This document shows positions 20,355-23,557 of a stretch of 64,000 nt of DNA, one piece after another. This DNA is from Ignavibacteria bacterium (lineage in GTDB: Bacteria > Bacteroidota > Ignavibacteria > Kapaibacteriales > UBA2268): NCBI GenBank assembly GCA_016844745.1, contig JAERMQ010000003.1, positions 90,496 through 154,495 of the forward strand. The letters are read 5' to 3'. Under the pieces are notes generated by a model. It did no database searches, was not told the DNA's origin, and saw only the letters and a list, made by a program, of their open reading frames with translations. Position numbers and translations under genes: made by a program. How positions within the stretch are numbered: position 1 is the first letter of the stretch; each line of letters begins with the position of its first letter.

Positions 20355-22514
20355 TTAAATTTTCTTAAATCTTAGTTTTACGGTTGTTCCCTGATTAATC
20401 TCGCTAATGATTTCTATTTTTCCATCGGCAGAATCGAGCGCTCGTTTAACGATTGATAGTCCCAATCCTGTTCCCTGTTTTGATAACCCATTTGAAAAGC
20501 GGTGGAACGGTTCATACAGATGACTTATCTCGGAAGAGGGAATGCCGATACCTTGGTCGGTTATATCGCAGAATATCTCGGAAGCATCTTCCCTTAATGA
20601 TATTTCTATGGTTGATTCCTCCGGCGAATATTTGACGGCATTGCTTATCAGGTTCGAGAAAATATGATTCAATACGAGGTAATCAATAAAAATGAAGATT
20701 TGCTCAGGATTACAATTAACGATAAACCTGTGATTACCTTTATCTATTAATTTCAGGTTGGTTACTTGTTCATTAATATAATCAGTCAAATCGACTTTAA
20801 TTTTTTTCAGGTTTAGTCTGCTGGAATCAGGTCTGCCTATAAAAAGCACTTCATCCAGAATGGAAGTCATTGAATTAACACATTGCTGAATTCTTATTAT
20901 TTGTCTATCAAAAAGTCTGGTCTCATCTTTGATTAAATAATATTTTATAATATCCGATGCAGATTGAATGACCGTAAGTGGTGTTCTGTACTCGTGCGAA
21001 ACCATTGAGATAAAATTGGATTTTAGTTTGTTCAGTTCCTTTTCCTTTTCGTAAGCAGCCTTCAATTCGTATTGTGTTGTTATCAGTTCTTCGTTTTTAT
21101 CAATCAGCTTTTTCTGGAAGCGGCTTTTCATACGAAGCTGATATAATGAAATTGTGATTATTCCTATTAAAAGAACAATTATTATTACTAATAACAGCCC
21201 TACGGACTTTTGCCTGTCTAATTCAAGGTCGCGAATAGAACCTTCCTTTTTGGCAAGTTCAAGATCCTTATCCTTTTGCTCGATGGAAAATTTAAGAAAG
21301 AGTTCATTTAATCGGCGGGTTCTTTCCAAATCCATGATTGAGTCTTTGATTGCAATAAATTTATCCTTAAATTCATTCGATTTTTTGTAATCGCCTGTCA
21401 TTGCATAATATTTTGCATAATTCTCGAAAAGGTCTTTCCTAATACCTTCGCATCCCTTTTCATAAGCAAATAATAAAGTTTCATCGAGATTACTTTTTGC
21501 TTCTTTTAATTTATTCCTTTTCAGATTTAAAATTCCAATTTTTAAATTTACTGTAGCTATTCCTTTTTGGTCATTCAATTCTTTCTTTAATTCAAGGGCT
21601 GTATTGAAACAATTAGCAGACTTTTCAAACATACCTTTTTCCTGATAAACTTCTCCCAGATTGGAAGTTGCTATTGCTTTACCAGGTTTATCACCTAATT
21701 TCTCTTTAATTTCCAATGAGAGTTGCAATAATTCCAAAGCTCTATCATAATTTTTTAATTTTTGATGTACGTTACCTAAGTTATTTAAAATTATTGATTT
21801 TAAACTTTTATCATTTATTTTTTCAACACCTTTTAAAGCTTTCTCATAAAAATCCAATGCTTGCCGGTTATTTTCAAGCATACCATAAATATTACCAATG
21901 TTATTTAAAATTCGTGGAATACTTTTAAGAAATTTCTGCTCATTAGCAATTCTTAGAGCATCTAACAGGTATTTAAGTGCATTATCATAATCACCAATCT
22001 GACGATAAGTATTAGACAAGTTGTTTTTTATATCACTTAAGTCCTGTTTATTACCAAATTTATTAATGTAATATTCAGATTTTTTTAGCGCTTCTAAAGA
22101 TTTATCAATTTGATTCAACTTTCTATAATTTATACCGATATTATTATAGATTTCTATAAGAAGGGTATCACATTTAGTTATTTGAGCTAATGTGATGGAA
22201 TATTGAAAATAACGAATTGATTCGGCATATTTATAACTGCTTTTATAAGCATAGCCAATCATATTGTTAGCGTCGAGTTTTAATGAATTGTCATTTTGTT
22301 CCATGGCAATATCGTATGCCTCAAGTGCATACTGCAAAGCTTGGCTATTGTTCAGATTCAGTAATGAATCCGATGCTTGAATTAATAATTTAAATCGTTC
22401 TTTGCCTTTGACTGACTGCAGCTTTTGTTCGAACTTTGCGTCGTTTTGACTATACAGACTATTGTTGCAAATAAAGTAAAAGAACAAATAAAATGTAACA
22501 TATTTTATGTTCAT
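20355..22514 (-). CDS. TPR-repeat sensor histidine kinase
   Basis: Multiple TPR repeats, one TM, HisKA (SHEYRTPLTVIQSASDII), HATPase (GTGLGLSIVKR). Confidence 0.95.
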   Translation of the reverse strand: MNIKYVTFYLFFYFICNNSLYSQNDAKFEQKLQSVKGKERFKLLIQASDSLLNLNNSQALQYALEAYDIAMEQNDNSLKLDANNMIGYAYKSSYKYAESIRYFQYSITLAQITKCDTLLIEIYNNIGINYRKLNQIDKSLEALKKSEYYINKFGNKQDLSDIKNNLSNTYRQIGDYDNALKYLLDALRIANEQKFLKSIPRILNNIGNIYGMLENNRQALDFYEKALKGVEKINDKSLKSIILNNLGNVHQKLKNYDRALELLQLSLEIKEKLGDKPGKAIATSNLGEVYQEKGMFEKSANCFNTALELKKELNDQKGIATVNLKIGILNLKRNKLKEAKSNLDETLLFAYEKGCEGIRKDLFENYAKYYAMTGDYKKSNEFKDKFIAIKDSIMDLERTRRLNELFLKFSIEQKDKDLELAKKEGSIRDLELDRQKSVGLLLVIIIVLLIGIITISLYQLRMKSRFQKKLIDKNEELITTQYELKAAYEKEKELNKLKSNFISMVSHEYRTPLTVIQSASDIIKYYLIKDETRLFDRQIIRIQQCVNSMTSILDEVLFIGRPDSSRLNLKKIKVDLTDYINEQVTNLKLIDKGNHRFIVNCNPEQIFIFIDYLVLNHIFSNLISNAVKYSPEESTIEISLREDASEIFCDITDQGIGIPSSEISHLYEPFHRFSNGLSKQGTGLGLSIVKRALDSADGKIEIISEINQGTTVKLRFKKI

Positions 22515-22678
22515 TGAAATATCCTCTTGTGAACAAATTACTCTATCCTAAATCAACTTTTTTTGTTCATAAGTTGAAAAATATTTTTATACTTTATTAA
22601 AATAGTAAAATTATTTTTAATTACAAAATATTTTTAATTAAAATTTTTATTTATAATTATTTATTTCGAGGTGTTCAA

Positions 22679-23197
22679 ATGAAAAAAAACTTAACCTATC
22701 GCATTTTCGCAAGTGTATTATTCACACTTTTTGCATTATCATGCAGCGACAATTCTAAAATGCTAAGTCCGGTCGAATCAAACAATTCAAAAAACATTCC
22801 GATTATTGAACAAAGCTATCCGAATGATAGATTATATACTACAACTCATGAGTGGGTTAAAGTTGGGGAAGACCAAATTGCCGTAGTTGGTATTACGGAA
22901 TATGCAGTCAATGCTATAGGACTTCCTACAACTCTCGATGAGTATGAAGAAGCTGATGCTCCTATAAAAAAGGGTGGTAAAGTATGCTCTGTTTCCAATT
23001 CCCAGCAATCAAAAGATGTTTATACTCCAGTTAGCGGCACTCTAATGGGTTATAACCCAACTGTACAGCAGAACCCCGGTATTTTATATGACTATCCTTA
23101 TTCGACCGGTTGGATATTCAAAGTTACCGATTTTGATCCAAACGATTTAAATGATTTGATGACCTCAGCTCAATATCAAGCTTATATAGGTCTGTAA
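22679..23197 (+). CDS. Lipoprotein with a GcvH-like (glycine cleavage H protein) domain, lipoyl-Lys replaced
   Basis: Signal peptide with lipobox FALSC; RLYTTTHEWVKV, ITEYAVNAIG, DVYTPVSGTLMGYN and STGWIFKVTDFDPNDLNDLMTSAQYQAYI match H-protein landmarks. Confidence 0.88.
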   Translation: MKKNLTYRIFASVLFTLFALSCSDNSKMLSPVESNNSKNIPIIEQSYPNDRLYTTTHEWVKVGEDQIAVVGITEYAVNAIGLPTTLDEYEEADAPIKKGGKVCSVSNSQQSKDVYTPVSGTLMGYNPTVQQNPGILYDYPYSTGWIFKVTDFDPNDLNDLMTSAQYQAYIGL

Positions 23198-23342
23198 TTC
23201 AACAAAAATGCTATCGCTATGATTAATTTCAAGCAATAGTATCGTGATGAAATCTACCGATAATTCCAAAAAAGATGTTCGGGAAGGAGAGGTGTGCTTT
23301 TGCATACTTCTCCTTACCTTTTATTTTTAAATACAAAGTTGC

Positions 23343-23408
23343 GTTCAAACAGACAAGGATGTCTGTTCTACCAATAACAGTAGAACAGACATCCTTGTCT
23401 GTTTGAAC
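23343..23408. repeat. Perfect 29-bp inverted repeat, nested
   Basis: GTTCAAACAGACAAGGATGTCTGTTCTAC-caataaca-reverse complement; each arm contains AGACAaggaTGTCT. Confidence 0.93.
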
Positions 23409-23446
23409 TCTACCTCCGACTATTACTATCAACGAGCAGTTTTAAA

Positions 23447-23557
23447 GGGGGCTTCTAAAAATTGTCATTCTGAGCGAAGCGAAGAATCCAGTCTTCTTTA
23501 AAATCAACAAGATAGATTCTTCGCTTCGCTCAGAATGACAGTTTTTAGAACCCACCT
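23447..23557. repeat. MITE/REPIN-like element, GAAGCGAAGAATCC core with GGGCTTCTAAAA-type ends
   Basis: ggggcttctaaaaattGTCATTCTGAGCGAAGCGAAGAATCC...GATTCTTCGCTTCGCTCAGAATGACagtttttagaacccacc. Confidence 0.88.

Follow-up and report, generated by a model that had tools for sequence, protein, structure and literature searches.

The glycine cleavage H-protein GcvH (PF01597; NCBI gcvH equivalog TIGR00527; structures 1onl and 3a7l) is a cytosolic protein without a signal peptide, carrying lipoate on the lysine of an ESVKAASD-type motif and encoded by a sole or linked gcvH gene. Two further proteins, LbpA and GcvH-L (PDB 5a35), are GcvH-derived, and we know of neither as an exported lipoprotein. 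In LbpA, the lipoate-binding protein of sulfur oxidation, whose role lies outside glycine cleavage, the lipoate lysine is strictly conserved (PMC6067878). Our literature search for an exported or kinase-linked GcvH found nothing relevant. With respect to signalling, the proteins of the NlpE-Cpx and RcsF-Rcs systems include accessory proteins, either lipoproteins or periplasmic, that regulate histidine kinases, and TPRs are protein-binding repeats. FimS of Porphyromonas gingivalis (NF053520) senses through TPRs in the periplasm; its ligand is not known, and a polypeptide has been proposed (PMC11053733).

An H-protein domain behind a lipobox

The locus described here lies in a window (the whole stretch of DNA that was analysed) of 64,000 nucleotides, from a genome of 5.0 Mb in 128 contigs, and its central gene has the following features.

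22679..23197, + strand: GcvH-like lipoprotein, 172 aa (ORF, Pfam, AlphaFold, Foldseek)
22679..22744, + strand: lipoprotein signal peptide with lipobox FALS-C (Cys22), then SDNSKM (PROSITE-type pattern match)
22832..23185, + strand: GCV_H domain, residues 52-169 (Pfam PF01597, 6.6e-24; AlphaFold/Foldseek TM 0.92 to 1onl, target-normalised)
23003..23005, + strand: CAG codon of Gln109, the residue aligned with the lipoyl lysine (alignment to H-proteins)
23012..23014, + strand: Lys112 codon, at +3 relative to the lipoyl site and within the beta strand that comes next (alignment; AlphaFold)

The preliminary description of this gene had proposed a lipobox signal peptide fused to an H-protein domain, and both parts hold: a scripted PROSITE-type pattern matches SVLFTLFALS-C22, and the GCV_H match is strong, with a score against TIGR00527 (85.6 bits) that nonetheless stays below the equivalog cut-off of 115.85. 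The domain was modelled at pLDDT ~97 (AlphaFold, 40-sequence alignment), and the top Foldseek match of the model is the Thermus H-protein 1onl (34% identity). Over about 120 residues the fold is that of GcvH, with target-normalised TM scores of 0.92-0.93 to the solved H-proteins and the same scaffold residues, whereas GcvH-L is a weaker structural match at 16% identity.

Searching 54 genomes of the family directly, we found two further members at 35-36% identity, G015 (recorded as Candidatus Kapaibacterium sp.) and G007 (a Bacteroidetes/Chlorobi group MAG), both from other genera and both with a lipobox and a GCV_H domain; the lipobox cysteine is thus present in all three (C22, C25 and C23, scripted pattern match). 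Among the matches listed, 396 genomes of the phylum and 198 relatives yielded no additional lipoprotein candidate. A single-sequence scan of genome contigs returned no relative, and an alignment-based scan returned the G015 and G007 orthologs again, plus canonical GcvH. In a maximum-likelihood tree, the GcvH domains have too little length and too much divergence for the lipoproteins to be placed, and the three do not come out as one group.

The alignment to solved H-proteins runs without gaps through the motif, placing VSNSQQSKDVYTPVSG under VESVKTASDIYAPVAG of 1onl, so that the lipoyl lysine corresponds to Gln109 and the Lys of SKD lies three residues further on, as first proposed. In the AlphaFold model, residues 101-106 and 111-115 form the hairpin strands and 107-110 the turn, which puts Gln109 in the turn. 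E106 and V108 of the canonical motif are both Ser in the window protein. We then compared the 29 alignment columns whose conservation across 37 canonical GcvH sequences reaches 85% or more (counted by script; the three lipoprotein rows are related to one another). The hairpin columns E106, V108 and K109, invariant in the 37, are kept in 0/9 cells of the three lipoproteins, and the other 26 columns in 56/78, among them Y53, W59, G71, P117, N126, P133, G144, W145 and Y166, which all three keep. This pattern is one in which, judged from sequence, the GcvH scaffold has been kept and the cofactor site lost; it supports the earlier proposal of a protein without canonical lipoylation, since the register of the lipoyl lysine is gone from all three members, and it separates the lipoprotein from LbpA with its strict lysine.

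The genome also encodes a canonical gcvH (L001, motif EAVKTVADI) and gcvT, both on other contigs, and its remaining GCV_H matches likewise lie on contigs other than that of the lipoprotein. The lipoprotein is therefore not the H-protein of this genome, and the early remark that no other glycine cleavage gene is nearby was correct. It appears to be a copy of the H-protein that has shed the cofactor lysine and gained a lipid-anchor export signal.

Two repeats lie downstream of the gene. At 23335-23410 of the window is a near-perfect inverted repeat of ~73 bp with AGACAAGGATGTCTGTTCTAC arms, REP/MITE-like, a few dozen copies of which are scattered through the genome (65 matches, both strands counted). 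A second inverted repeat at 23460-23545 (ATTCTGAGCGAAGCGAAGAATC vs. GATTCTTCGCTTCGCTCAGAAT) looks like a dispersed repeat or a terminator.

Divergent pairing with a TPR sensor kinase

Gene order and domain matches bear out the initial reading that the lipoprotein gene is divergent from a TPR histidine kinase gene.

22515..22678, no strand: AT-rich 164-bp intergenic region between the lipoprotein and kinase genes
20355..22514, - strand: TPR sensor histidine kinase, 719 aa, with signal peptide, TPRs, one transmembrane helix, HisKA and HATPase_c
21150..21206, - strand: transmembrane helix, residues 437-455, between the TPRs and the kinase core (hydropathy scan)
20823..21023, - strand: HisKA domain, residues 498-564, SHEYRTPLT (domain search)
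20364..20678, - strand: HATPase_c domain, residues 613-717 (domain search)

This kinase shares the layout of FimS (N-terminal signal or transmembrane segment, periplasmic TPRs, transmembrane helix, HisKA, HATPase_c), but it scores 178 bits against an NF053520 equivalog cut-off of 600, and no response regulator gene adjoins the lipoprotein/kinase pair. In G015, too, the lipoprotein gene diverges from that of a TPR histidine kinase (739 aa, 101-bp gap), and no protein of the 54 genomes matches the window kinase better than this one (36-37% over the full length, 384 bits; next best 27%, 233 bits). In G007 the divergent neighbour, across 91 bp, encodes a TPR protein with a signal peptide and is cut short by the end of a 4.3-kb contig; ranking this truncated fragment against the TPR kinases reflects generic repeat similarity. 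The co-occurrence of lipoprotein and kinase suggested at the outset is thus seen in the window and in G015, and in G007 takes the form of a truncated TPR protein.

The remaining flanks are unrelated (some names read from sequence): the window has an RND pump and RNase Y, G015 an SDR and an ASPIC/UnbV protein, and G007 a Der-like GTPase. In ten regions examined around the next-best and more distant TPR kinases, none has a GcvH-like lipoprotein beside the kinase. Across 294 genomes of the class, a draw outside which G015 falls, only one other match passed 1e-60. With ~46 HisKA matches in the genome and an estimated ~4000 genes, the chance of lying next to a kinase is ~1% per neighbour. By eye in the alignment, we saw no motif shared by the three intergenic regions.

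Because the gene stands back-to-back with a sensor-type gene in three related bacteria, with a complete kinase in two of them, its product is probably an envelope partner of the kinase. The shared expected periplasm, the protein-binding nature of TPRs and the polypeptide proposed for FimS point more specifically to a ligand or regulator. We consider it reasonably probable that the non-lipoylated GcvH-fold lipoprotein serves a FimS-like TPR kinase in this way, with the binding, its effect, the localisation and the signal all conjectural components of that reading. A duplicated H-protein scaffold, no longer able to carry lipoate, would be exported by Sec and lipidated at Cys22, most likely facing the periplasm from a presumed membrane and leaflet. 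The GcvH-fold domain would then probably dock on the TPR ectodomain that the kinase of the divergent gene exposes to the periplasm, acting as activator or brake, and an envelope state or small ligand might thereby be relayed through the lipoprotein to the cytoplasmic kinase core. The first suggestion of a binding or sensory partner gains from the G015 pairing as far as the gene link is concerned, with binding itself still inferred. The likeness to NlpE-Cpx and RcsF-Rcs lies in the proposal that a protein anchored in the envelope gives input to a sensor kinase; the folds are unrelated, and here the putative interaction would involve a repurposed metabolic carrier scaffold.

Divergent genes 91-164 bp apart are often co-regulated without contact between their products, and the lipoprotein could accordingly have an envelope role of its own, the kinase merely controlling its expression or the two genes simply sharing a divergent promoter region. 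We regard this as possible but rather unlikely, as the pairing is kept across genera while the remaining flanks differ, and as the TPRs of the kinase are of the protein-binding type and expected in the same compartment as the lipoprotein.

Residual lipoylation, decay and localisation

The other alternatives turn on the hairpin, the distribution and the sequence after the cysteine. Two of the three members have a lysine in the hairpin region (Lys112 in the window protein, Lys115 in G015), and an exported H-protein still lipoylated at such a nearby lysine might act as a periplasmic redox carrier. In the window protein, however, this lysine is out of register and sits in a strand. MAFFT places Asn at the lipoyl position of G015, with the lysine at the next residue of a loop lengthened by two residues; in the model of this ortholog the scaffold is confident, and Lys115 is placed at low confidence in hairpin blocks of pLDDT 54-60. 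In G007 the position is Leu and the hairpin holds no lysine at all, so that neither homolog has the canonical lysine in register, and E106 and V108 are gone as well. Lipoylation moreover acts on folded cytosolic domains, which is hard to square with export by Sec, since Sec takes the chain unfolded. Taken together, these observations make continued lipoylation very improbable.

We give equally little credence to a functionless gcvH duplicate in decay that acquired its signal peptide by an accidental fusion. Its occurrence in 3/54 genomes is very sparse and the identity is low, but open frames, lipobox and scaffold residues are kept in three genera even though the active loop has diverged, and the gene pair is conserved.

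The minimal Bacteroidetes surface-export motif, defined in Capnocytophaga, is K-(D/E)2 or Q-A-(D/E)2 (PMC5080379). It is absent after the cysteine in 3/3 lipoproteins (SDNSKM, SNDSKV and SENSIQ), although a Capnocytophaga signal may not be that of this lineage. Because the motif is missing from all three, a periplasm-facing position seems more likely than the cell surface, so that of the initial alternatives, cell-surface or periplasmic, the second is favoured. A surface-exposed lipoprotein unconnected with the periplasmic TPR domain is most unlikely, even though in all three the +3/+4 positions behind the cysteine hold acidic residues or Asn.

A possible role of lipoate-free GcvH domains in two-component signalling

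The third GcvH-like protein of the same genome is a response regulator in fusion with a domain of GcvH type that lacks the lysine motif (L003/L201, at L201:2839-5135 on contig C45); its gene comes after a PAS/HisKA kinase gene. Together with L184-L200, these fusions carry an SSDLRTQSxxSPLSG-type motif and lie directly after a HisKA kinase gene in 12/15 loci scanned; many genomes of the family have them, and frames of comparable length give matches in other families of the class. Like the lipoprotein, they have a GcvH-like domain that lacks the canonical lysine motif and are tied to two-component signalling, but they differ from it in being cytoplasmic, fused to a receiver domain and usually placed after a HisKA gene. 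In the tree of these short, divergent domains the fusions fall into a group of their own, and overall it can neither join nor separate the two sets. We also observed a divergent 374-aa protein (L197:1459-2583) that has a hydrophobic helix at its N terminus, regions resembling a receiver and GcvH, and a very long tree branch, as well as standalone GcvH-like proteins in Lentisphaeria/Victivallaceae MAGs (L042, L061 and L074) that have lost the motif lysine (IEADETIDIYSPISG, VEGSNEKMEIFSPLSG and LEADDAEYDLYSPISG).

As a tentative extension, somewhat less probable than not, a lipoate-free H-protein scaffold may in this Bacteroidota lineage have been recruited repeatedly into two-component signalling, beyond the inner membrane as the lipoprotein ligand of a TPR kinase and in the cytoplasm as the output domain of response regulators. 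TPR sensor kinases recur in this Bacteroidota family, and the signal of the studied FimS is unknown; the conserved neighbouring lipoprotein offers a concrete candidate for the protein ligand of one such kinase. If the proposed partnership is true, it would be a clear case of a carrier domain of central metabolism turned into a part of extracytoplasmic signalling, with its cofactor site lost.
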